Positions 810 to 20,544 of a stretch of DNA of 27,872 nt are shown here, in pieces. Positions within the stretch are counted from its first letter, which is position 1; every line of letters begins with the position of its first letter. A program made the position numbers and the translations under genes. The notes under the pieces were generated by a model, which searched no databases, was not told where the DNA came from, and saw only the letters and a program-made list of their open reading frames with translations. Source of the DNA: a virus; the IMG/VR virus record IMGVR_UViG_3300024353_000057, positions 1 through 27,872 of that record, one strand, 5' to 3'.

Positions 810-3800
810 ATGGCTGATAAGAAGAACGACGGACGCACCGAGCTATTCAAGAGGCTGACACAGCTCTTCCGTGGTGGCCCAAGCATAAAGAGAAAGGTCA
901 GAGCGTTCAGAACGCCTGTTGCATCGAGTGCAGCAGAAGTGTTCAAGAAGAGCTACTCACAGGTGTATAGCAATGCATTGAACGCTTATGGGCAATACGA
1001 TCGTATGAGCAGATATGCGGATTTCTCGGAGGCAGAGTACACTCCTGAAATCGCTTGTATCACTGGAGACATGATAATCAATACTCCTATGGGAGATTTT
1101 ACAGCATTAGAGCTTCTTGAAAAGTTTCCTGGTGATGAAATATTTCCCGTGTATTGTTTTGATGAGACAAAACAAACACTGACAATTGGTAATGCTCATC
1201 ATGTTCGAAAGACAAAGACTGCTCAAATTTATAAGGTATCTCTAGATTCAGGAGATGCTATTCGATGTACTGGAGACCATCTATTTTTGACGAGAGATAG
1301 TAGATGGGTTGAAGCTCAAAACTTGAAATGTGGTGATAGACTGATGCCATTCTATCGCAAGAACAGTAAGCAAAAACAAGGGTATAATTCAATTTATACA
1401 ATTTCAGATGGGTGGAGACAAGAACATCAGTTTGTTGCTGAGTGGATGTTAGGACGTTCTCTTGAAGGATATCCTAATGAAGTTGTTCATCATAAAAATC
1501 TTAACAAGTGTGATAATTCGCCCGATAACTTATTAGTCTGTTCTGCAGAAGAGCATAATGCTATTCATGGTAGGGAGTGGAGTGGATATCCTACAAATGA
1601 ACGTCTGAAGCAAATTGCTGAAAAAATATCTATAGCGAATAAAGGACGTAAGTCTCCATTTAAGGGAGTTCCTGGTCAGAAGCACACGGAAGAAGCTAAA
1701 GAAAAAATTTCGATAACGATGACTGAAAGACATGCAACTGATGCTGATTATAAATCTCGTGCTACAACTGGCATGATTGATTTTATGAAATCAGATGAAG
1801 GACGAGCAATAGCATGTGAAAAATTTACTGACATGAATCGTCAAAAATGGGATTCTGATGAAGAATATCAGAAGAAGATGATAGAGATATTCTCAAATCG
1901 TGCCAAAGAAGCTCATAAGGATGAGAACTTTAAGCAAAAGTGGAGGGATGGACAGAAAGCATATTTCGCTTCTTTGTCTCCGAAAGAACGATCGTTAATG
2001 TTTAATCGTTCTCCTGAGAATGTAGCTAGAATTGAATCGATTATTATCGAGACCGCGAAGATATCATCAACATATGAGAAGTTTATTGATTTACTTGATG
2101 TTGGTTGGACATTCAAATCAAAGGGAACAAAGTGCTCATATTTGAGGAACTATGCTCGACGCAAGGGATTTAAGAATGGTCGTGAGCTATACAATTTCTA
2201 CTATCAGAATCATTCTGTTGTTTCTGTTGAGCTCGATGGCATCGAAGACGTTTATGATTTGACGACAGATGTATATCATAATTTTGCTTGTAACGGTGTC
2301 ATTATTCATAATTCGGCCCTCGACGTATACTCAGAGGAAGCCTCAGCCGCCGACGACCAGAACAACGTTCTTCATGTTTACTCAAACAACCCGAAGATTC
2401 AATCGATTCTTAATGAGCTGTACCACGACATCTTGAACGTTGAGTTCAACATCACACCGTGGACACGAAACCTCGTCAAGTTTGGAGACCTGTTCCTTTT
2501 CATCGATGTGCACCCTGAACAGGGCGTTCTCAATGTCATGTCGATGCCAGTAAATGAGGTTGAACGTGAAGAGGGTTGGGACCCTAACGACCCATTCGCC
2601 GTCAGGTTCAGATGGACGACACAGGGCAATAAGATTCTAGAGTCATGGCAGGTCGCACACTTCAGGTTGATGGGAAATGATGCATTCCTTCCGTACGGTT
2701 CATCTGTGCTTGAGAGCGCCAGAAGAATCTGGCGACAGTTGATTCTTATCGAGGATGCGATGCTTGTGTATCGCGTCGTTCGTTCTCCTGAGCGTCGTGT
2801 GTTCTATATCGATGTTGGAACCGTCGCCGCCGAAGAGATTCCAAACTACATGGAGGCAGCGCAGACGAAGCTGAAGCGGTCGCCCGTCATCGACAAGTCC
2901 TCAGGGCGCGTCGACTTGCGATATAACCCCTTGCCAGTTTGGTCTCAAAGCAGAATTCCGTTGCTTGATGGTAGAACAATCACAATTCAGCAGCTGGCCG
3001 AAGAATTTGATGAAGGAAAAGAAAACTGGGTCTATTCAGTGCAGGATAAAACGCATAAAGTCGTACCAGGAAAAGTCGTTTGGTGTGGAAAGAACTACAC
3101 TGCAGAGCGTCTTGTGAAGGTGTGGCTTGATGATGATACATGGGTGATGACTGCACCCGAGCATCCATTTTTGATGAGGGATGGAACAAAGAAAAGAGCT
3201 GATGAGCTAGCTGTTGGTGATAGCTTGATGCCTTTGTATAGGAAATTGAGTGATAGAGGAACCATGATTGGTTATCCTATGGTTTTTGACCCATCATTGA
3301 ATAAACTTGTTTATACACATCGTATAGTTGCAGAAGATGTTTTTAGTAAAGAAAAAAAATCATTTGTTGTTGACCATGATGACACATCAACAAGTTTAGT
3401 CGTGCATCATAAAAACTTTAATCGTTTAGACGCAACACCATCTAATTTAGAGTGGATGACAAATAAAGAACATATTGAGTATCATGCATCATTAGGTAGA
3501 GAAAACTTTATTCGCTATAATAAATCAGATGAAAAAAGAGTTAGAACAAGCCATTTGAATCGTGTTTATCAGAAAGCAGAAAGAATGGGCGCGCTATATA
3601 ATGGAACAGAGCTACACAAGAGTCATAATTTAGTTCGCTCCAAAGCTTTAACTAATTTTTGGGCTGATAATAAAAACAAAGAACGAACGTCAAAAAATAT
3701 GTCGTGGAATATTTCTCACGGCTATCTTTCATTATTGTTTGATTTTATTAAGTCAAATCCAAATATTAAGAAAACAGATTGTCAGAAATTTATATCTACA

Positions 3801-5525
3801 AATGAGTCATTTTTAAATGAATTATCATTAGCGAATAGTTCATTAAAAAGACACCCTTCAAAATTTCATATTAGCACAGTTATATCAAAATATAAGCCCA
3901 CGAAATGTATTGACTGGGACTCGTTTAAGCATGCAGTTATAACAGGTGATATTTGTGTTAATCATTCAGTCGTTAGAGTTGAATTTGTTGAACAACGTGA
4001 CGACGTTCATTGTATGACTGTTGTCGGACCGAATAACGAAGATGATAGGCATAACTTTGGTATATGTTCAATGTACAAAGACACAGAACGAGGATATAGT
4101 GATAATGGGGTTATAGTAGTCAACAGTGTCGACGAGGACTATTTTATACCCGTTCGTGGCTCTGAGTCAGGTACTAAAATTGACACTCTGGCTGGCGGCC
4201 AGCATGTTTCAGACATCGCTGACGTCGAGTACATTCAGAAGAAACTGTTCGCGGCCCTAAAGGTTCCAAGGGCATACTTGGGATATGATGAAAGTCTTAG
4301 TTCCAAGTCTACTCTTGCTCAGGAAGACATTCGTTTCAGCCGTTCTATCGCACGCATCCAGCGTGTGTTGGTGTCTGAGCTACAGAAGATTGGCATCATC
4401 CACCTCTTTGCACATGGATTTGAGGGTGATGACCTCGCTGACTTTTCAATCCATCTATCAAATCCTTCAACCGTTGCACAGATGCAGAAGCTTGAGCTAT
4501 GGAGAATGAAGTTTGAGATTGCTGGCACCGTTCCAGAGGGCCTGACTGACCGCGACTTCATTCGTAGAGAGATTTTCAAGCTCACTGACGAACAGATTGA
4601 CTCAATCAAGGAAGGACGCATCTCTGATAGGATTGAGGACATGGAGCTTGAGCAGACCGAGATTGAGAGTGATGGAGGAGGCTCTGGCGGTGGTGGTGGA
4701 GGCGCCGGTGGCTTGGGCGGTCTCCCAGGTGGTGGCGGTGGAGAACCAGCATTTGATTCGGGTGGTGCAGATGAAGAGCCTGAGGGTGGTTCATCTGAGA
4801 CATCATCTGGCACCGGTGGTGGAGATGAATCAGGTGGAGAGGAGGACCTCTTCGCGGGAGACGTTCCTGACGGTCAGCAGCTTCTTACATCTGCAGATGA
4901 TGACGAAGATGATGCTGTTGGCATAGAGTCTGACGCCGGTGATGATGACGTCAGCACACATGTAGAGCCACGTGGTCCATCACTTGCAAGGGCACTCAAT
5001 GACATCGGAAAGGCATCTGCATCGAGGTCTGGTAGGAAGGGTCCTGTTGGTACGACACCGTTGTCAAAGGCGCTCTATGACAGGGGGCGCCGTAGGCATC
5101 ACGGTGCTAGCACGACACACATGCCCGATTTTAGAAGCTCACTCGTATCGCCTCTCGTCTCAGGTGATGATAGCCCAATAGACACGAGGTTCTTTAACGC
5201 AAATCCGTTCAAGATGGGTGAGAATCGTTCATTGGGAGACATCATCGAGCCAGTTGCCCAACGTGAGAAGCAGAGGTTGTCGGCCGACGTACGCTCAATG
5301 ATAGAGATGTTTCGACGCAGCAAACAGTACCAACGGAGCATACATAAGAATGTGATGTCGCAGCAGACTGTGATGACAGAGGGTGAAATCGACCTGATGA
5401 TTGAGGATGACGGCATCCTCGATATCACGCCTCCAAACGATGAATTGATTGAGAGTCTTTTGGTTGATGAAGGAATCTCAGATGAACCCAAGTCAGATGT
5501 AATACTTGAGGGTGATGAAGAATGA
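810..5525 (+). CDS. Portal protein (T4 gp20-like) precursor with two inteins
   Basis: The precursor is 1571 residues. Removing inteins at residues 83-501 and 709-1105 leaves an extein of about 755 residues. The extein pieces read as a T4-family portal: EYTPEIA joined to SALDVYSEEA, then NEVEREEGW, VYRVVRSPERRVFYIDVG, RYNPL joined to SVDEDYFIPVRG, DTLAGGQ and LKVPRAYLGYDE. The portal dodecamer forms the special head vertex, starts prohead assembly and is the DNA channel. T4 gp20 has 524 residues. The extra length is a C-terminal tail with a Gly-rich stretch (about residues 1288-1320), an acidic low-complexity stretch and a final helical/acidic segment. The start is ATG at 810 with GAGG at 802-805. 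The stop overlaps the next start (ATGA). Extein and intein differ in composition, the inteins being clearly more AT-rich. Confidence 0.95.
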   Translation: MADKKNDGRTELFKRLTQLFRGGPSIKRKVRAFRTPVASSAAEVFKKSYSQVYSNALNAYGQYDRMSRYADFSEAEYTPEIACITGDMIINTPMGDFTALELLEKFPGDEIFPVYCFDETKQTLTIGNAHHVRKTKTAQIYKVSLDSGDAIRCTGDHLFLTRDSRWVEAQNLKCGDRLMPFYRKNSKQKQGYNSIYTISDGWRQEHQFVAEWMLGRSLEGYPNEVVHHKNLNKCDNSPDNLLVCSAEEHNAIHGREWSGYPTNERLKQIAEKISIANKGRKSPFKGVPGQKHTEEAKEKISITMTERHATDADYKSRATTGMIDFMKSDEGRAIACEKFTDMNRQKWDSDEEYQKKMIEIFSNRAKEAHKDENFKQKWRDGQKAYFASLSPKERSLMFNRSPENVARIESIIIETAKISSTYEKFIDLLDVGWTFKSKGTKCSYLRNYARRKGFKNGRELYNFYYQNHSVVSVELDGIEDVYDLTTDVYHNFACNGVIIHNSALDVYSEEASAADDQNNVLHVYSNNPKIQSILNELYHDILNVEFNITPWTRNLVKFGDLFLFIDVHPEQGVLNVMSMPVNEVEREEGWDPNDPFAVRFRWTTQGNKILESWQVAHFRLMGNDAFLPYGSSVLESARRIWRQLILIEDAMLVYRVVRSPERRVFYIDVGTVAAEEIPNYMEAAQTKLKRSPVIDKSSGRVDLRYNPLPVWSQSRIPLLDGRTITIQQLAEEFDEGKENWVYSVQDKTHKVVPGKVVWCGKNYTAERLVKVWLDDDTWVMTAPEHPFLMRDGTKKRADELAVGDSLMPLYRKLSDRGTMIGYPMVFDPSLNKLVYTHRIVAEDVFSKEKKSFVVDHDDTSTSLVVHHKNFNRLDATPSNLEWMTNKEHIEYHASLGRENFIRYNKSDEKRVRTSHLNRVYQKAERMGALYNGTELHKSHNLVRSKALTNFWADNKNKERTSKNMSWNISHGYLSLLFDFIKSNPNIKKTDCQKFISTNESFLNELSLANSSLKRHPSKFHISTVISKYKPTKCIDWDSFKHAVITGDICVNHSVVRVEFVEQRDDVHCMTVVGPNNEDDRHNFGICSMYKDTERGYSDNGVIVVNSVDEDYFIPVRGSESGTKIDTLAGGQHVSDIADVEYIQKKLFAALKVPRAYLGYDESLSSKSTLAQEDIRFSRSIARIQRVLVSELQKIGIIHLFAHGFEGDDLADFSIHLSNPSTVAQMQKLELWRMKFEIAGTVPEGLTDRDFIRREIFKLTDEQIDSIKEGRISDRIEDMELEQTEIESDGGGSGGGGGGAGGLGGLPGGGGGEPAFDSGGADEEPEGGSSETSSGTGGGDESGGEEDLFAGDVPDGQQLLTSADDDEDDAVGIESDAGDDDVSTHVEPRGPSLARALNDIGKASASRSGRKGPVGTTPLSKALYDRGRRRHHGASTTHMPDFRSSLVSPLVSGDDSPIDTRFFNANPFKMGENRSLGDIIEPVAQREKQRLSADVRSMIEMFRRSKQYQRSIHKNVMSQQTVMTEGEIDLMIEDDGILDITPPNDELIESLLVDEGISDEPKSDVILEGDEE
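1056..2312 (+). mobile_element. Intein 1 in the portal gene, canonical, with HNH homing endonuclease
   Basis: A 419-residue in-frame insertion occupies residues 83-501 of the portal precursor. The N-terminus is the block A pattern CITGDMIINTPMG with Cys1. Block B is CTGDHLFLT, with the TxxH-type histidine. Block F is VYDLTTDVYHNF, and block G is NGVIIHN followed by Ser, giving a canonical His-Asn end and a Ser +1 nucleophile. An HNH nuclease lies at precursor residues 225-256 (VVHHKNLNKCDN...PDNLL). It is followed by helical NUMOD3-like DNA-binding repeats (NKGRKSPFKGVPG...SEEAK-type, KISITMTERH). Splicing joins PEIA to SALDVY, which restores the conserved portal motif. All splicing residues are intact, so it should be active, and the HNH could drive homing into intein-less portal alleles. 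Confidence 0.93.
2934..4124 (+). mobile_element. Intein 2 in the portal gene, atypical splicing motifs, with HNH homing endonuclease
   Basis: A 397-residue in-frame insertion occupies precursor residues 709-1105. It lies between RYNPL and SVDEDYFIPVRG, which read as continuous portal sequence when joined. The best N-terminal residue is Pro709 (PVWSQSRIPLLDG), so the usual Cys or Ser nucleophile is missing. Block B is present (MTAPEHPFLM). In block F the sequence DVHCMTVVGP puts Cys1068 where intein 1 has Asp, which is the position of the essential block F nucleophile in class 3 inteins. The Trp and Thr expected in class 3 are not seen. The C-terminus is NGVIVVN then Ser, with Val in place of the penultimate His. 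An HNH motif lies at residues 864-893 (VVHHKNFNRLDATPSNLEW). The DNA is AT-rich compared with the flanks. Confidence 0.88.
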
Positions 5526-7007: not shown

Positions 7008-7841
7008 ATGACAATATTGTGTATAAAGTCTTTTAGCGTTAATCTTGATAAGCCGAAAGCATCGAAGAAAACAAAGCGCGTCATTCAGATGAAGTGCGAT
7101 GTTTGTGGTGTTGAGTTTGAAAAAAAATATCAACGGAATAATCTTCGAGATGATATCACGTGCAGTCAAGTCTGTGCAGCAAAAAGACGTGAAGCAAGAT
7201 TGTCTCCAGAAAAAAAAGAAGCTCGTCGTAATAAAAAATCGATAATTCAAACCCAAAAAAATATCCAATATTGGGCATCATTATCAGATACTGAGCGCTC
7301 TAATTTAAAGAAAAGAATCGCAAAGGGCACAGTTGAGGGCATGGCAAATATGTCTGAAGAAGATAAAGCCAAGCTTAACATGGCAATCTCTGCTGGTTCA
7401 AAAAAGAACTGGGCGTTGAACCATGACTCAATAGTTGAGAAGTGGCGTAAAACGATGTCAAAAAGAGGCACACATCCCGTCTCTAAACCCGAACGTCTTC
7501 TAAAAGAAAAGCTTATTAGATTACTTGGGGATGATGATATCGAGACACAGAAAATCGTCAATGGTCATCGAATCGATATTTTCATCAAGTCTCTTAACAC
7601 GTACATCCAGGTTGACGGTACATATTGGCATGGCTATGGGACAACTGTAGAAAAACTTCTTTCGACTGGATTACGTAGAGATAAACGACGAGCAAATGCA
7701 ATCATTTTTGATGAAAGACAAACAAGCTGGTTTAAGCTTAATGGTTTCAGGCTTCTGCGCGTCAGTGATGCATGGGTGCTTAATGCAACAGATGATGATA
7801 TCATGAGTGTCGTTCTACTTAAGCATAGGGCGCTCATATGA
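7008..7841 (+). CDS. Free-standing homing endonuclease, Vsr-like/PD-(D/E)XK type
   Basis: The 277-residue protein starts with a zinc-ribbon-like cluster (Cys30, Cys33, Cys52, Cys56). Lysine-rich helical repeats resembling homing-endonuclease DNA-binding modules (about residues 65-155) follow. The C-terminal nuclease domain has SKPERLLKEKL (Glu162), GHRIDIFI (Asp190) and YIQVDGTYWHG (Asp203, His208), the layout seen in Vsr-like (EDxHD) homing endonucleases. No intron or intein surrounds it. Base and codon use (AAA, GAA, AT-rich) differ from the flanking structural genes, which supports horizontal insertion. ATG at 7008 follows GAGG at 6992-6995. An ATG at 7089 that keeps the zinc cluster is an alternative start. 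The stop overlaps the next start, and that gene's Shine-Dalgarno lies inside this one. Confidence 0.85.
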   Translation: MTILCIKSFSVNLDKPKASKKTKRVIQMKCDVCGVEFEKKYQRNNLRDDITCSQVCAAKRREARLSPEKKEARRNKKSIIQTQKNIQYWASLSDTERSNLKKRIAKGTVEGMANMSEEDKAKLNMAISAGSKKNWALNHDSIVEKWRKTMSKRGTHPVSKPERLLKEKLIRLLGDDDIETQKIVNGHRIDIFIKSLNTYIQVDGTYWHGYGTTVEKLLSTGLRRDKRRANAIIFDERQTSWFKLNGFRLLRVSDAWVLNATDDDIMSVVLLKHRALI

Positions 7842-12750: not shown

Positions 12751-14697
12751 ATGAGCAAGACCTTTTCGCTGGAATATCTTACAGAGGGCATCCAGCAACG
12801 CGACATGAGCGCGGTGGCCCTTAAGCTTTGTGGAAAGTGGGACCGTACTGGCCTACTTCGCGGGCTTGGCGGAGTAAAGAAAGAGAACATGGCACGGCTG
12901 CTTGAGAACCAGGCCGCTGAGGTGCTTAAGGAAGTCAACAGCCTTTCAACTGGCGCTGGTGCCCTTGCGGCGTCAGGCGACATTCGCGGATTCAGCAACA
13001 TTGCGTTTCCGATTGTTCGTCGCGTGTTCGGCGGCCTGATTGCGAATGAGTTGGTGTCAATCCAGCCGATGAGCTTGCCCTCGGGTCTGCTCTTCTACCT
13101 TGATTACACATACGGCTCGCATGTCGGTGGTGATACAACCTCAGCGGGTGTTGCTGGTTCTGCGAACGCGCAGACATACACTGCTGGTCGTTCTATCTAC
13201 AACCAGCCGACTGGTCGTGGAGTCAGGTCTGGTTCGCTTGCGACGGGTGGTCAGTATGACCTCGTCGGAACGTCATTCACGAAGGTGCATAAGACGTTCA
13301 CTGTTGCGTCAAACGAACTTTGTCTGTTGGCGTCAGGCGCTTACCAGGGCACGGGTAACCTTGTCAATGCTGGTTTGATGCATGCGACGGGAACAGATGC
13401 GCAGTTGACGATGTTCGACCCACAGGTCGGAACGTTGATTGAGAACGATGTTGCTAACGGGGCCTTCGACAGCACCGGCCGCTTCCAGTTCCTCATCTTC
13501 AACGTCAACCAGTTCCCAGCCACTGTCGACCTAACGAACGTTGATTCGATTGTTCTTCACTCTGTTGGTCTCTCTTCCCTTGGACTTGCGGTCATTCCGC
13601 AGACAATCCAGGGTCAGGGCGCCAACAACCTGAACATCCGTCGTCTCAATCAGCTCGGAACGTGGTCAGGCGGCGTGTTCACACCGAACGCGTTGGTTGG
13701 ACGTTCTGATACGGGTGCTGCGTTGTTGACTGTTGTCTCTGGTGTGTATGCACCCACTGGCATCGCCAATAACTCAACAACCACACAGGCGTTCGGTCTG
13801 ACTGGTTCCTACGCGGTCGCCGATTCACTCGATGTTGATAGCTCAGACGCCTCTGCGCTGACCATCCCTTCGTTTGAGTCTGACTTTGGAATCAATCCTC
13901 CGACACCAATCATCCCTGAGATTGACATTAAGATTGAATCAATCTCTGTGACAGCGACGACCCGCAAGCTACGTGCTCGTTGGTCGCCTGAGCTGGCCCA
14001 GGACCTGAACGCTTACCACAGCCTCGACGCTGAGGTTGAGCTTACGCAGATTCTGTCAGAGCAGGTTGCTCTTGAGATTGACCGTGAGATTCTGTCGGAC
14101 ATGCTCCGCCAGGCGAACGGTGCGAACATGTACTGGAGCCGTGCTCCTGGTAAGTTCGTTAACAAGTTGACGGGTAGAGAGATTACTCTGACGAGCTCAT
14201 TGGCCCCGGGCCCATCGTTCCAGGGTACGGTTCGTGAGTGGTATGAGACCCTCATCGAGACAGTCATCGATGTGGCGAACACAATCCACAGGAAGACGTT
14301 GCGCGGAGCAGCCAACTTCATCGTCACGAGCCCAGACGTTTGCACAATCCTTGAGGCTTCGGTCGCATGGCGTCCGTTGATTAGCATTGATGCGCAGGGT
14401 CAGGTCTCCAATCCGTTCACATTGGGTGCTGAGCCGGTGGGTACATTGAACAACAGGTTCACGGTCTACAAGGACCCGTACTTCCCGCAGAACAAGGTGT
14501 TGGTTGGATATAAGGGCAAGAATTATTTGGAAACGGGTTATGTATACGCTCCGTATGTCCCTCTCATTGTCACTCCGACGATTTTCGCTCCTGAGGATTT
14601 CACTCCTCGCAAGGGCGTTATGACACGGTACGGCAAGAAGATGGTTCGTTCGGACTTCTACGGCACCGTTACAGTAATGGACCTCAACGTTATCTAA
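12751..14697 (+). CDS. Major capsid protein (T4 gp23-like)
   Basis: The 648-residue protein carries the gp23 signature block NIAFPIVRRVFGGLIANEL followed by SIQPMSLPSGLLFYLDY. Its typical C-terminal region includes GTLNNRFTVYKDPYFPQNK, VGYKGKNYLETG, YAPYVPLIVTP and TRYGKKMVRSDFYG. It forms the hexameric capsid shell. The N-terminal 60 residues look like the propeptide removed by the gp21 protease, with candidate L-x-E sites at Glu12, Glu52 and Glu61. T4 gp23 has 521 residues. The extra length is a Gly/Thr/Asn-rich insertion at about residues 125-390. A strong AGGAG at 12739-12743 precedes the ATG, and two tandem stops (TAATAA) are followed by a strong terminator. Confidence 0.96.
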   Translation: MSKTFSLEYLTEGIQQRDMSAVALKLCGKWDRTGLLRGLGGVKKENMARLLENQAAEVLKEVNSLSTGAGALAASGDIRGFSNIAFPIVRRVFGGLIANELVSIQPMSLPSGLLFYLDYTYGSHVGGDTTSAGVAGSANAQTYTAGRSIYNQPTGRGVRSGSLATGGQYDLVGTSFTKVHKTFTVASNELCLLASGAYQGTGNLVNAGLMHATGTDAQLTMFDPQVGTLIENDVANGAFDSTGRFQFLIFNVNQFPATVDLTNVDSIVLHSVGLSSLGLAVIPQTIQGQGANNLNIRRLNQLGTWSGGVFTPNALVGRSDTGAALLTVVSGVYAPTGIANNSTTTQAFGLTGSYAVADSLDVDSSDASALTIPSFESDFGINPPTPIIPEIDIKIESISVTATTRKLRARWSPELAQDLNAYHSLDAEVELTQILSEQVALEIDREILSDMLRQANGANMYWSRAPGKFVNKLTGREITLTSSLAPGPSFQGTVREWYETLIETVIDVANTIHRKTLRGAANFIVTSPDVCTILEASVAWRPLISIDAQGQVSNPFTLGAEPVGTLNNRFTVYKDPYFPQNKVLVGYKGKNYLETGYVYAPYVPLIVTPTIFAPEDFTPRKGVMTRYGKKMVRSDFYGTVTVMDLNVI

Positions 14698-14726: not shown

Positions 14727-14730
14727 CTAG

Positions 14731-14760
14731 ACGGGAGGGATTTCGGTTCCTCCCGTTTTT
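14731..14760 (+). terminator. Strong rho-independent terminator after the major capsid gene
   Basis: ACGGGAGG pairs with CCTCCCGT, and two more inner pairs (one G-U) close a short TTTCGG loop. A run of five T follows. This GC-rich stem with a U tract is the clearest intrinsic terminator in the window. It should end transcription of the head operon and isolate it from the accessory genes that follow. Confidence 0.92.
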
Positions 14761-14896: not shown

Positions 14897-14923
14897 GACT
14901 GTATTGTATTACTATTGTCATCT

Positions 14924-15901
14924 ATGATATTATTGTTTGTGCAGTGTAAAGAATGTAGTAAGAGCTTTATTCGAATTGTTAACCATGTCATAAAAACACA
15001 TAAGATGTCATATCGTGATTATGTTATTAAGCATGAATATGCAGGCATCGCTCCGCTATGTGGTTGCGGATGTGGCCAAATTCCGACATTTCGAAAAGGA
15101 AAATTCAAGCGTTATGTTCATTGCCATGTATCAAATGACCCAGTTCTTCGTCAAGAAATGATTAATGCTGGTAAAGCGGCCGCCGCAGACCCAGAGAAAC
15201 GAAAAAAGAATTCTGAAGCTGTTAAACGTCGATGGCAAGATTCTGATTATCGTGAGATGATGGCAAATCCTGAATTTCATGCTCGACGTGCTATAGAGTC
15301 TCGAAAATCAACAACGACACCTGAATTTAGTGAGAAGATGCGTCAAATAAAGCTTCAACTTTGGAAGGATGAAGAATGGGCAGAAAAACAGCGAGAAAAG
15401 TTTTCAAGTGAAGAGTTTAGTGAGCTAGTATCGAAAGCAACGACAGAAGCATTATCTGGAACTGAGATTCGTGAAAAGATGAGCTCAATTGCTAAAAAGG
15501 GATTTGCTGATGGCAAACGTACTCCAAAATCGAATTGGTCAAACATCAATGCTGGCTGGCACATCGACCCTCATACCAAAATTTTAACATGGTTTGACAG
15601 CGGCTGGGAGTTTGAGTTTGCTGAACTGTGTCATAAGCATGGTGTCGTCGCAATTAGAAAGAACGACCTCATACTTCCTTATACGTTCGACGGTGTTGTT
15701 TCGAATTACTTTCCAGACTTCGTTCTTCCAGAGCATAAGCTCATCATTGAGATTAAGGGTCAAGAGTCAGAAAGAGATTTGGCAAAATATGAAGCTGGTG
15801 AAAAGTATGCTGTAGAAAATGGGATGGGATACATCGTTATTAGGTTATTCAACGAACGTCGCTTTAACGTTTTCTTACAGTTGTTAAAGGAAGCTGCATA
15901 G
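14924..15901 (+). CDS. Zinc-finger PD-(D/E)XK nuclease, probable free-standing homing endonuclease
   Basis: With ATG at 14924 the protein has 325 residues. Frame continuation to TTG 14915 is possible, and no Shine-Dalgarno is visible. The N-terminal module has Cys8, Cys11, His21, His26, then YVIKHEYAGIAPL and a CGCGCG cluster (Cys46, 48, 50). Residues 70-205 are basic helical repeats with several Trp and KR pairs, probably DNA-contacting. The C-terminal domain is a PD-(D/E)XK nuclease: Glu229 in SGWEFEFAEL, Pro264-Asp265 in NYFPDFVLPE, and Glu276-x-Lys278 in LIIEIKG, all intact. Base use is AT-rich like the inteins. It is placed right after the capsid gene, a frequent site for mobile endonucleases. 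The next gene is a methyltransferase with the same zinc module. Confidence 0.85.
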   Translation: MILLFVQCKECSKSFIRIVNHVIKTHKMSYRDYVIKHEYAGIAPLCGCGCGQIPTFRKGKFKRYVHCHVSNDPVLRQEMINAGKAAAADPEKRKKNSEAVKRRWQDSDYREMMANPEFHARRAIESRKSTTTPEFSEKMRQIKLQLWKDEEWAEKQREKFSSEEFSELVSKATTEALSGTEIREKMSSIAKKGFADGKRTPKSNWSNINAGWHIDPHTKILTWFDSGWEFEFAELCHKHGVVAIRKNDLILPYTFDGVVSNYFPDFVLPEHKLIIEIKGQESERDLAKYEAGEKYAVENGMGYIVIRLFNERRFNVFLQLLKEAA

Positions 15902-15925
15902 CAAGTCATCAGATGCTATTCGGCA

Positions 15926-15955
15926 TTGAATGTGCTTCATGTTCTAAGGTATAAT
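15926..15955 (+). promoter_or_regulatory. Candidate sigma70-like promoter before the methyltransferase gene
   Basis: TTGAAT at 15926-15931 and a perfect TATAAT at 15950-15955 are spaced by 18 bp. The -10 box ends only 5 bp before the ATG, so a transcript from it would be leaderless or nearly so. An in-frame stop just upstream (15952-15954) rules out an earlier start codon. Confidence 0.4.
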
Positions 15956-15960
15956 ATCAC

Positions 15961-17463
15961 ATGGTTTCACCCTTAACAGAGAAGCGCTCATTTGACTTCA
16001 CTGACCACGCATGTCTTGAATGTGGGCGCAAGTGCTCTGGACGTCGTTCTATTGGCAACCACATCAACCGTGCACACGACATTGACCTGATGTCTTACAC
16101 GCTCAAGCACATGTTCGGTGGTATCAGACCCAAGTGTCTCTGCGGATGTGATGAGCCTGCTCCATGGCATGAAACACAATACAGGTTCTGCGATTTTATC
16201 AATGGCCACAATCGTCGTGTTTTTGCAAAAAACACCGTAGATGATAGCGTCGAACAATCGAAGCCAACATCATTGGCAGACGTGCTTGTTTCTCGTGTCA
16301 AGGATGCAACTGCGGGGCTTCTAGCACATCGCTCCAACGCATTCAAATTTAAGGATGATGATGACCCAATCATATCACGTGAAGAGCTCATTCGTATAAA
16401 TGAGACTACGATATTTCCTGATGCTCCGGGCCGTGATTTTACACGTGATGTGCTGAAACCTCTCCTTCATCAGTTTTATCAGGCGTACGTCGCACATCAT
16501 GGGTGGTTCTACCCAGAGACAGACATGTCTGTGAGTGCTGCAATCGATAGGGTCAAGAACCACAGCATCGATTATCAAAGCGATATCATCTCATCGCTTG
16601 GTAATGCAGGTAGCCCGTATCTTAAGGCGATGTTCAAATCATACTGGGACGTTGATGATGGGCCTGTGCGCTCTTTTGATGATTTTAAGAAACGAGACTC
16701 AGTGTTGAGATATCGTTTGGGTCTGAACACATCAAAGCCATACACGTATGAGCTGTCTGACGGCATGATTGTGACGTGTCATGAAACGTTTGATATCAAC
16801 ATCAAGAACATACGATACGGGTTCATCGTTCAACGTGCGGCAGTGTCATGGTTTAAGCCCACTGCTGCGTTTGAGATATACAGACGATTTCTTAAGAGCG
16901 TCGATACACCTGTAGTCTGGGACCCATCATGTGGATTTGGAGCACGCTTGCTTGGGTTTGTTGCATCGCATCCAAATGGCACATACATCGGCACGGAACC
17001 AGCGTCGAAGACATACGCTGACCTGTGTAGATTAAAAAAGTCATTGAACAGCGTTGCACAGAACGTGAAGATTGATATTAGACAGCACGGAAGTGAGGTT
17101 GTTCTTGACGGCGTAGCTGATGGTAGCGTCGATTTTGTTTTTACTAGCCCGCCGTATTTTGACAGAGAGTGCTATTTCAATGAACCAGGACAGTGTTGGC
17201 TTGACCATCCCAACGAAAGTGCATGGGTGTCTGGATATTTGATTCCCACATTCACTGAGGCACATCGAATTCTTAAGAATGGTAGCCACATTGTGATAAA
17301 CATCGATGAACAGAACAGGGACCTCATCATTCATGCTGCCCTTGGCGTCGGCTTCATTCAGGAAAACGGGCTCAGATTATCAATTGGACGAGACCATTTC
17401 AGTAAGAAGACGGGAAACAGCGGTCAAAAGACAGAGCCGATTCTTGTGTTTAGGAAACCGTGA
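15961..17463 (+). CDS. DNA methyltransferase (N4-C or N6-A type) with N-terminal zinc-finger module
   Basis: The 500-residue protein starts with a zinc-binding module (Cys18, Cys21, His34, His39, then YTLKHMFGGIRPK and Cys59, 61, 63) that aligns with the N-terminus of the preceding nuclease. The catalytic part has a SAM-binding motif, DPSCGFGARLLG, from residue 321 and a catalytic motif, TSPPYF, from residue 395. The order is that of gamma-type amino-methyltransferases, with a region such as SDGMIVTCHETFDINIKNIRYG before the SAM motif. It should methylate an exocyclic amino group in DNA, but the base and site cannot be read from sequence. Codon use is like the structural genes. It could protect phage DNA from host enzymes or from the neighbouring nuclease. 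Confidence 0.88.
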   Translation: MVSPLTEKRSFDFTDHACLECGRKCSGRRSIGNHINRAHDIDLMSYTLKHMFGGIRPKCLCGCDEPAPWHETQYRFCDFINGHNRRVFAKNTVDDSVEQSKPTSLADVLVSRVKDATAGLLAHRSNAFKFKDDDDPIISREELIRINETTIFPDAPGRDFTRDVLKPLLHQFYQAYVAHHGWFYPETDMSVSAAIDRVKNHSIDYQSDIISSLGNAGSPYLKAMFKSYWDVDDGPVRSFDDFKKRDSVLRYRLGLNTSKPYTYELSDGMIVTCHETFDINIKNIRYGFIVQRAAVSWFKPTAAFEIYRRFLKSVDTPVVWDPSCGFGARLLGFVASHPNGTYIGTEPASKTYADLCRLKKSLNSVAQNVKIDIRQHGSEVVLDGVADGSVDFVFTSPPYFDRECYFNEPGQCWLDHPNESAWVSGYLIPTFTEAHRILKNGSHIVINIDEQNRDLIIHAALGVGFIQENGLRLSIGRDHFSKKTGNSGQKTEPILVFRKP

Positions 17464-18164: not shown

Positions 18165-18428
18165 ATGGCACAACAGCCTGATTTTGATGACATGTCTTTT
18201 GAAGAGGTCAGTCGCCTCTTTGATAGGGTCTATGATGCATATCATGAGAAGCTATCGGAGCTTCCATCATTCGAACAAGAGAGGATGAGGTCTGAAGAAG
18301 ACGCATCTAATGCATCTGCTGGTGAGAGGCATCTTGCTAGACGCTTGGATGTGCTTACAGCGACAACGACAAATGTTGTTCGACTCTTGACAGAGATTCG
18401 TGACCTGATGAAGGGAAAGACCAACTGA
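18165..18428 (+). CDS. Small helical protein upstream of clpP, unknown
   Basis: The 87-residue protein is acidic at the N-terminus ([20 protein letters not shown]) and ends in a long helix ([30 protein letters not shown]) with a heptad-like hydrophobic pattern. The TGA overlaps the ClpP start (TGATG), so the two should be translationally coupled. It could be an adaptor or partner of the protease, but this is only positional inference. TAGTAT sits directly before the ATG, and no Shine-Dalgarno is visible. Confidence 0.72.
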
Positions 18429-19012
18429 TGAAAAACATGATTCCCACCGTCATCGAGATGACGAACAACGGTGAGCGAGCATATGATATTTGGTCTCGCT
18501 TGATGAAGGATAGAATCCTTTTTCTTGGTTCTGAGATTGATGACCACGTTGCAAACATCCTCGTTGCTCAGTTGCTTTTTCTTCATAGCGAAGACCCTGA
18601 GAAGAAAATCGACCTCTACATCAATAGTCCTGGAGGGTCTGTGACGGCTGGCCTTGCAATCTATGACACGATGCAATTCATCAGATGTCCTGTTGCGACG
18701 ACATGTGTCGGCATGGCAGCGTCGATGGGTGCAGTCCTTCTCTGCGCAGGAGAACCTGGAATGCGGCGCGCGCTCCCAAATTCTCAGGTGATGATACATC
18801 AACCTCTCGGTGGTGCATTCGGACAGGCATCTGACATTGAGATTCGGTCGCGTGAGATTGTGAAGACGAAAAACAAGCTGTCAAAAATCATCGCTAGTCA
18901 TAGCGGTCAGACAATTGAAAAGGTCATCTTAGATTGTGACCGTGATTGCTATCTAACGCCTGAGGAGGCGCTAGCGTATGGTATAGTTGATAGCGTCGTT
19001 GGGAGTAAATGA
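18428..19012 (+). CDS. clpP: ClpP-like ATP-dependent Clp protease proteolytic subunit
   Basis: The 194-residue protein is full length for ClpP without a propeptide. It has the oligomerisation and substrate-groove motif [19 protein letters not shown]. The catalytic triad is Ser99 in GMAASMG, His124 in [10 protein letters not shown], and Asp173 in [18 protein letters not shown]. ClpP forms double heptamer rings that degrade proteins fed by a Clp unfoldase. No unfoldase gene is in the window, so it would use a host ClpX or ClpA, work with phage proteins, or act on phage head proteins. It overlaps the upstream small gene, and its stop overlaps the next one. Phage-encoded ClpP is known, but its purpose is not settled. 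Confidence 0.95.
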
Positions 19013-19917: not shown

Positions 19918-20544
19918 ATGCTTCGTATGAAAGAAAGAAGCCTCATCTGCAAGGAGTGTGAAAAACATGTCGCTAACACTCGTAATGTTCTGTCTAGGCA
20001 CATTCGTTCTGTTCATGGGATTGAGTGGCCAGATTATTATGTTAAGCATGAGATGGCAGGCGTTTGGCCAACCTGTGCGTGTGGTTGTGGCTCACGGCTT
20101 GAGTGGCACAAGGGTGGGTTTGGAAAATACATCACTGGACATGATGTTCGTGCACAGACGAGTGTCGTTCGTGAGCATCTGAGGCCAGGGTGGATTACTA
20201 ATCCATTCACGGGTCGTGAAGAGAACATCATGTCTGATGCTGCAATTGCATTCATGGAGCATTGCATCGATAAAAATGACCCAGTGACGTCTGACCACGG
20301 GTTCCGTGTCGGATGGGAAGACTCAAAGGGTTCTGTGAAGTTTTTGATACCGACATTCAAGCACATAAAAAAGAAATTGATTCTCATAATTGATGAATGC
20401 GTCGATTTAGATTTTAATCGTCGTGTGATTGGTCTCAAGCAGTGGTGTGATATGCATCAACACTCGATGCTTGTCATCAAGCCCACGAAGGGTGGCTTTG
20501 ATGTCGTCAGTGGTTATCGTCCGAAGGGTATTACCGATGCGTAA
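19918..20544 (+). CDS. Zinc-finger protein with degenerate PD-(D/E)XK-like domain
   Basis: The 208-residue protein has the same N-terminal module as the two genes at 14924 and 15961: Cys11, Cys14, His28, His33, then YYVKHEMAGVWP and a CACGCG cluster (Cys53, 55, 57), and a KYITGHD turn. The C-terminal half aligns with the nuclease domain of the 14924 protein, but each catalytic position is lost: Glu229 becomes Ala109, Asp265 becomes Thr146 (LIPTFKHI), Glu276 becomes Ile157 and Lys278 becomes Asp159 (KLILIIDE). The basic repeat region between the two domains is missing. It may therefore bind DNA without cutting. The start is ATG 19918, or ATG 19927 three codons later. No Shine-Dalgarno is visible, but GATAAT ends 8 bp before the start. 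Confidence 0.8.
   Translation: MLRMKERSLICKECEKHVANTRNVLSRHIRSVHGIEWPDYYVKHEMAGVWPTCACGCGSRLEWHKGGFGKYITGHDVRAQTSVVREHLRPGWITNPFTGREENIMSDAAIAFMEHCIDKNDPVTSDHGFRVGWEDSKGSVKFLIPTFKHIKKKLILIIDECVDLDFNRRVIGLKQWCDMHQHSMLVIKPTKGGFDVVSGYRPKGITDA

Follow-up and report, generated by a model that had tools for sequence, protein, structure and literature searches.

Behind the major capsid gene of a T4-like phage, a nuclease gene is followed by a methyltransferase gene, and both encoded proteins begin with the same zinc-finger module. This arrangement raises the question of whether the two enzymes operate as one system and, if so, whether that system resembles a restriction-modification (R-M) enzyme, a homing gene or a combination of both. 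The window analysed here is a virus fragment of 27.9 kb (27,872 nucleotides) in which T4-like head genes were identified by Pfam and PHROG searches. The features under discussion are collected in Table 1. Loci from other viral genomes are denoted by L numbers.

Table 1. Coordinates of the features discussed, in positions of the window (ZnF, zinc finger; MTase, methyltransferase; AF2, AlphaFold2).
Feature	Positions	Strand	Basis or remark
Major capsid protein gene, gp23 family	12751..14697	+	Pfam Gp23, E=1e-75; PHROG 138 major head protein; 5' landmark of the element
Rho-independent terminator of the capsid gene	14729..14758	+	Terminator scan; empty/occupied comparison of relatives
ZnF + PD-(D/E)XK nuclease, TnsA/DUF559-like fold, 325 aa	14924..15901	+	Pfam, PHROG, AF2 model
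Nuclease zinc-finger module, C8 to H68	14945..15127	+	Module alignment, profile match
Nuclease PD...ExK active-site stretch, P264 D265 ... E276 I K278	15713..15757	+	Alignment with relatives
Sigma-70-like promoter, TTGAAT-18-TATAAT, just 5' of the MTase start	15926..15955	+	Promoter scan; not evidence of function
ZnF + amino-methyltransferase (MTase), 500 aa	15961..17463	+	Pfam N6_N4_Mtase; AF2 pLDDT 89
MTase zinc-finger module, C18 to H83	16012..16209	+	Module alignment, profile match
MTase 32-residue linker, residues 100-131; L273 has 222 residues there, including an EDxHD/Vsr-like nuclease	16258..16353	+	BLASTP against L273
MTase motif I, DPSCGFG (residues 321-327)	16921..16941	+	
MTase motif IV, TSPPY (residues 395-399)	17143..17157	+	
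Third module copy: ZnF + PD-(D/E)XK-like domain, degenerate active site	19918..20544	+	Alignment with relatives

The nuclease, the methyltransferase and their shared module

Both reading frames of the pair described by the sequence-only reading are present, lie 59 bp apart and retain complete sets of catalytic residues. The nuclease gene starts at an ATG, in a frame that is open from a TTG at position 14915. The contrast in composition was reproduced, with a GC content of 0.399 (GC3 of 0.329) for the nuclease gene against 0.465 (0.466) for the MTase gene and 0.456 for the window. The two genes are separate, and each possibly has its own start signals. A promoter scan of the element region returned three sigma-70-like promoters against 3.4 expected by chance, with no excess over shuffled sequences.

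Several other features of the window were recorded. The portal gene (gp20 family, positions 810-5525) is an ORF of 1571 residues that contains two inteins with an HNH_3 homing domain in each. An AT-rich nuclease gene (7008-7841, GC3 of 0.35) with a Vsr-like C-terminus lies directly 3' of the prohead protease gene and weakly matches homing endonuclease PHROG 3339. A ClpP protease homolog (18428-19012; Pfam CLP_protease, E=1e-78) is found amid the head genes.

The window nuclease matches Pfam DUF559 with 25.4 bits (cut-off 20.6) and PHROG 22215 over almost its full length. A Foldseek search with the whole AF2 model gave zero matches at E<=0.001; a second aligner placed the model near TnsA (Z 8.0), I-Bth0305I (Z 7.8) and Vsr (Z 7.7). 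The conserved PD...ExK residues and the TnsA/I-Bth0305I/Vsr-like fold assign the catalytic core to a known homing endonuclease class. None of the curated R-M enzyme models reached its cut-off, the NCBIfam model restr_BPTD_3080 giving 38.3 bits against a cut-off of 800. The same type of nuclease was found in L192, L257 and L265 and is absent from other relatives of the window capsid gene. It is the only occupant of the capsid site in L257 and L265, and therefore it need not always be paired with a modifying enzyme such as the MTase.

The MTase was identified as an amino-DNA methyltransferase by its motifs I and IV, by a match to Pfam N6_N4_Mtase (28.6 bits, cut-off 26.7) and by matches to PHROG DNA methyltransferase families. 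DNA is its putative substrate: the genomic context is one of DNA nucleases, and the closest solved folds among the matches listed are tRNA MTases. No target-recognition domain was identified in the window MTase.

The N-terminal modules of the two proteins align as the sequence-only reading had claimed, through a CxxC pair, an H-x4-H pair, a Y..KH...G..P block, a CxCGC cluster and a distal histidine. The BLASTP match between the two proteins (E=4e-8) is confined to the module, and the profile-profile comparison of nuclease-type and MTase-type modules gave a probability of 99.7% with E=2e-26 over 72 columns. The modules were compared through sequence profiles and through the order of secondary-structure elements in AF2 models, in which confidence is low for the CxCGC cluster of the nuclease. 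The score for Pfam ROS_MUCR is 14.7 bits in the window nuclease, below the cut-off of 25.4, and 34.9 bits, above it, in the fused relative L092. When the module alone was searched against named phages using tblastn, LR756508 was the only match. A common zinc-finger module hints, at the level of sequence, that the nuclease and the MTase may share a DNA recognition sequence.

A third copy of the module, missed by the sequence-only reading, is encoded downstream of the pair (Table 1). The C-terminal half of this product resembles the nucleases of relatives (31% identity over 99 residues with L265, E=7e-14), and its active site is lost, the PDF being changed to PTF with loss of the catalytic aspartate and the ExK to DEC. 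The product is thus probably catalytically dead. A homolog in L270 (7621-8307) keeps the PDF and lacks the ExK. These zinc-finger proteins without ExK, found in two phages downstream of the pair, may possibly be dead nucleases retained as DNA-binding antagonists or regulators.

Relatives that join a nuclease to the same methyltransferase

Single-sequence scans of IMG/VR with the window nuclease or the window MTase gave no matches, and alignment queries were required. More than 580 relatives of the MTase were obtained from IMG/VR, most of which are stand-alone genes of ~350 residues, and bacterial genomes provided one distant match only (24% identity). A subset of the family carries the zinc-finger module. 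All of the first four module-bearing MTases found also hold an EDxHD/Vsr-like nuclease between the module and the MTase, and all four of these ORFs lie directly behind a gp23-type capsid gene. At L045, L052, L057-L060, L062 and L065, two members of the MTase family are encoded in tandem with overlapping ends (~540 + 386 aa); no nuclease was noticed with these pairs.

The MTase family is fused in one ORF to EDxHD/Vsr-like, PD-(D/E)XK (L281), LAGLIDADG or HNH nucleases. The fusion of a zinc finger, an EDxHD-like nuclease and the MTase was found at 16-17 IMG/VR loci (L092-L108, of which L108 is truncated, L106 is decayed and several contigs were already in the first set), in the 484-kb phage LR756508 and in L176. 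Wherever the context is intact, a gp23-type capsid gene immediately precedes this ORF, except in LR756508, where another ZnF nuclease ORF stands between the two. The nuclease domain of these fusions matches the catalytic domain of I-Bth0305I (3r3p) with E=1.8e-4. Nearly all members retain the putative catalytic residues (D, E-x-D-G, H, D), the exceptions being L176, with D for E at the second position, and L104, with Q for the upstream E. The MTase motif I is conserved and motif IV is TSIPY in most. In L106 (1560-6785), the capsid-site element is split into several frames and the capsid ORF is broken as well, through either decay or sequencing error.

The relatives nearest to the window were found by scanning for the MTases closest to that of the window, and co-occurrence of the two genes outside the window was confirmed among them. 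The sequence-only reading would have been refuted had the pair been confined to the window, and it passes this check. A ZnF-PD-(D/E)XK nuclease stands behind the capsid gene in L270, and ~2.2 kb past it is an MTase with 57% identity to the window enzyme and without the module; the homolog of the third zinc-finger ORF follows downstream. L272 encodes a ZnF-PD-(D/E)XK nuclease, a ZnF remnant and an MTase with a truncated nuclease, and in L273/L274 the ZnF-PD-(D/E)XK nuclease overlaps a ZnF-nuclease-MTase fusion. In L281, where a ZnF-nuclease-Mom gene stands before it, a single ORF encodes a ZnF-PD-(D/E)XK nuclease-MTase that joins exactly those two domains that the window keeps separate (nuclease part, 24% identity, E=2e-15; MTase part, 33% identity, E=4e-25). 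A Vsr-like nuclease is fused to the MTase in L271, in which the module was not detected. In L012 and L275, the MTase is fused to, or followed by, a NUMOD4-HNH gene; a conserved protein of ~230 residues (L012 4092-4781 and L275 4047-4748), perhaps a small capsid protein of a tailless phage, precedes these elements. The LAGLIDADG-MTase fusions were found at six loci (L005 (LR745208), L276, L280, L287, L293 and L308), in every case immediately downstream of an HK97-type major head gene (PHROG 2522). Two of them, of 826 and 787 residues, stand in tandem behind one capsid gene in L276 (769-5603). The gp23-type and LAGLIDADG fusions therefore adjoin the major capsid genes of two unrelated capsid lineages. 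Nuclease and MTase are thus encoded together as in R-M systems, adjacent in the window and fused in L281, L273, L092 and others.

The window MTase and L273 share 46% identity by BLASTP, with residues 1-99 (module) and 132-499 (MTase) kept and 32 residues between them in the window against 222 in L273. The simplest reading of this alignment is that the window lineage lost the internal nuclease from its MTase protein. Among 39 catalytic domains placed in a tree, the window MTase falls in a clade of 13 with support of 95/99, all nuclease-linked except L270. The LAGLIDADG fusions lie outside this clade, and thus the joining of nuclease and MTase happened more than once. The tree labels were assigned from domain content, so that L272 is scored as EDxHD despite its truncated nuclease and L275 has an adjacent rather than fused HNH; the long branches of L281 and one L276 copy make their placement unsure. 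The suggestion of the sequence-only reading that the nuclease was inserted next to a resident MTase is not favoured, since the order of nuclease then MTase recurs in L270, L272 and L273, and since the window MTase groups with the nuclease-linked clade and looks like a fusion without its internal nuclease.

Two comparisons address selection in the fused relatives. For the close pair L097/L099, dN/dS values of ~0.18 for the nuclease and ~0.15 for the MTase establish that both halves are under purifying selection. For L092/L095, dN values of 0.16 for the MTase, 0.95 for the zinc finger and 0.68 for the nuclease establish that the ZnF-nuclease half was exchanged against a near-constant MTase half. 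This swap is expected if the front end sets the specificity of both activities, and free shuffling is compatible with it as well.

Occupants of the capsid-3' site

The DNA of L034, which carries a fusion, and of L133, in which the site is empty, matches to 53 bp past the capsid stop codon and then again from the next gene. The insert of ~2.1 kb in L034 lies immediately after the capsid terminator, and in L132 a GIY-YIG gene is found at the same spot. The flanks of L034, L133 and L132 are 77-81% identical. The same picture of an insertion at an occupied site was obtained for L095/L157 and for L105/L125. The fused relatives thus show the presence and absence at one conserved site, with matching flanks, that is expected of free-standing homing endonuclease genes. 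An exact empty allele of the window phage was not found; its nuclease is likewise the next gene after the capsid terminator. In L034, L105 and L132, sigma-70-like promoters end a few bases 5' of the start codon in the inserted gene, a position suggestive of leaderless transcripts, and the placement of the promoter before the window MTase resembles this pattern.

Capsid genes were also scanned without regard to the element, which gave 127 distinct capsid-3' sites (68 + 59). A homing-type gene is held by ~20% of these sites. The 68 sites include 10 with GIY-YIG genes, 3 with ZnF-nuclease-Mom-type genes and 1 with a fusion. Among the 59 relatives of the window capsid gene, 6 hold ZnF-nuclease-Mom-type genes and 6 hold ZnF-PD-(D/E)XK-type genes, although L202 and L262 of the latter show the zinc-finger part only or are cut off. 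The ZnF genes of 460-510 residues at the capsid site match homing endonuclease PHROG 3339 (E 1e-65 to 1e-109). A Mom domain is present in several of them, with Pfam Mom above the cut-off in L281 and below it in L239 and L189; the latter two also give Mom-like matches to PHROG 1384.

Since the site in relatives is empty or holds a GIY-YIG or ZnF nuclease-Mom gene, it is a hotspot for mobile genes, and mobile insertion at a fixed capsid-3' site is well supported for these relatives. Nucleases are thus joined repeatedly to modifiers of DNA that use two different chemistries (MTase and Mom), which supports a functional link. The placement of homing-endonuclease parts behind the capsid gene and the partnership of nuclease and MTase, both proposed from the window alone, are borne out by the recurrent fusion and co-location in relatives.

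A proposed self-marking element and its alternatives

The explanation regarded as moderately probable is that the window pair is the split form of a "homing nuclease plus self-modification" mobile element at a capsid-3' hotspot of T4-like phages. The element is best read as domain-shuffled and self-marking, resembling R-M systems in its working and homing genes in its movement. The zinc-finger module would bring the nuclease and the MTase to DNA and choose the site. Co-infecting phages without the element would be cut by the nuclease in their capsid-gene region and, through repair, would receive a copy of the element together with neighbouring capsid DNA. The MTase would mark the DNA of the carrier, which would then not be cut. 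In most relatives, the two activities reside in one polypeptide; in the window, the MTase has probably lost its internal nuclease and is preceded by a separate ZnF-PD-(D/E)XK nuclease. A homing gene of the intron type disrupts its own target when it inserts. By contrast, an insert next to an essential capsid gene would leave a target inside that gene intact, and the methyl mark would fill this gap in protection. We infer that the two enzymes share a target site, that methylation protects it from the cognate nuclease and that the element homes. The single-protein fusions that enter the same spot in relatives suggest a selfish gene that brings its own self-protection. Several findings count against this reading: a nuclease alone occupies the site in L257 and L265, most of the MTase family stands alone, no target-recognition domain was identified in the MTase, the closest listed folds to the MTase are tRNA N2-guanine MTases, no empty allele of this exact phage was found, and the two window genes are separate and differ in base composition, the nuclease gene being AT-rich.

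An unlikely alternative is an ordinary free-standing homing endonuclease whose insertion is its own protection, with the MTase as anti-restriction cargo that became fused through a common hotspot. It would account for the nuclease-only occupants of the capsid site and for the large stand-alone MTase family, and phage orphan MTases are known as anti-restriction genes. In cryoconite phages, no gene types vary more than MTases and homing genes (PMC7468147). However, the same MTase family is joined to four nuclease classes, an unrelated modifier (Mom) is found attached to this type of nuclease at the capsid site, and both activities appear to be kept under purifying selection in one chain.

It is distinctly unlikely that the window pair is a decaying relic whose remaining parts no longer function together. 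Decay is the usual fate of homing genes, the window MTase protein is without its nuclease segment, the third module copy is degenerate and broken copies occur in L106 and L272. Both window ORFs are nevertheless intact with all catalytic motifs, and the order of nuclease and MTase is also retained in L270, L272 and L273.

A true phage-borne R-M enzyme, which would recognise a short motif at many sites and degrade host or rival genomes in the manner of chloroviruses, with the capsid position incidental, is highly doubtful. The layout of a nuclease and an MTase in one chain resembles that of Type IIG enzymes, and the jumbo-phage Mom-REase fusions are predicted to act in this way (PMC7824862). Against this, the nearest relatives of the nucleases are homing endonucleases (I-Bth0305I 3r3p, PHROG 3339), the alleles swap with GIY-YIG genes at one exact site and the curated restriction-enzyme models are all below cut-off.

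An MTase that acts on RNA like Trm11/Trm14, unrelated to DNA protection, is very improbable: among the matches listed, the closest solved folds to the MTase model are tRNA N2-guanine MTases (Z ~19), but the Pfam and PHROG matches point to DNA methylation and the family is fused to DNA nucleases and zinc fingers. Mobile phage genes often carry zinc-finger modules, yet a chance neighbourhood of two such genes was rejected on the recurrent fusions, the repeated location and the module homology.

The window pair is best classified as the split form of a composite element whose components are of known kinds. I-Bth0305I (EDxHD, PDB 3R3P) is likewise a free-standing phage gene; the nuclease domain of the fused relatives matches it and the window nuclease has the same general fold, but with PD...ExK in place of the EDxHD residues. 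The review of that family describes no methyltransferase (PMC3943268). The T4 seg/mob genes are also intergenic and adjoin conserved genes, segD being located between genes 23 and 24, beside a capsid gene (PMC2988022), but they are GIY-YIG or HNH enzymes without an attached modification enzyme. Clustering of homing genes near capsid genes has been described (PMC10448857), and a phage homing endonuclease encoded in an intron is reported to aid competition when phages co-infect (PMC11620839).

Type IIG R-M enzymes combine a nuclease and an amino-MTase in one polypeptide, as the fused relatives do. In the present elements, unlike Type IIG enzymes, zinc fingers replace a recognisable target-recognition domain, the nuclease is of the homing type, the gene is phage-borne and mobile at one site, and the window version is split. 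R-M in chloroviruses is a subject of PMC7248222. Chloroviruses encode nucleases with matching MTases, and these pairs are separate short-site enzymes of algal viruses rather than homing elements. In a literature search that covered mainly open-access papers, no report of MTase-homing-endonuclease fusions was found, the nearest precedent being the jumbo-phage Mom-REase fusions of Iyer et al. (2021). In these fusions, too, a single chain carries a nuclease and a modifier of DNA; the modifier is predicted to shield the phage genome and the nuclease to attack rivals. Matching ZnF-nuclease-Mom genes occur at the capsid site here. Their modifier is a Mom-type acyltransferase (GNAT) rather than a SAM methyltransferase, and mobility at a capsid site is absent from the available part of the description (PMC7824862).

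More tentatively, and with slightly less than even confidence, self-marking homing elements may constitute a class in which unrelated homing nucleases repeatedly captured modifiers (the MTase family or Mom). An exchangeable DNA-binding front end, common to both activities, would direct the cutting of rivals and the marking of self to one capsid-linked site, so that immunity would come from methylation instead of target disruption. The association is seen with four classes of nuclease and downstream of capsid genes of two unrelated types, and is therefore testable in many systems. Self-protection usually comes from disruption of the target in homing genes and from methylation in restriction enzymes. 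If the proposal is true, elements that combine both protections would bridge these two classic kinds of selfish gene, and the tolerance of an insert beside, rather than inside, an essential capsid gene would be explained. The fusions would then be natural single-chain enzymes in which cutting and methylation may both be guided by zinc fingers.
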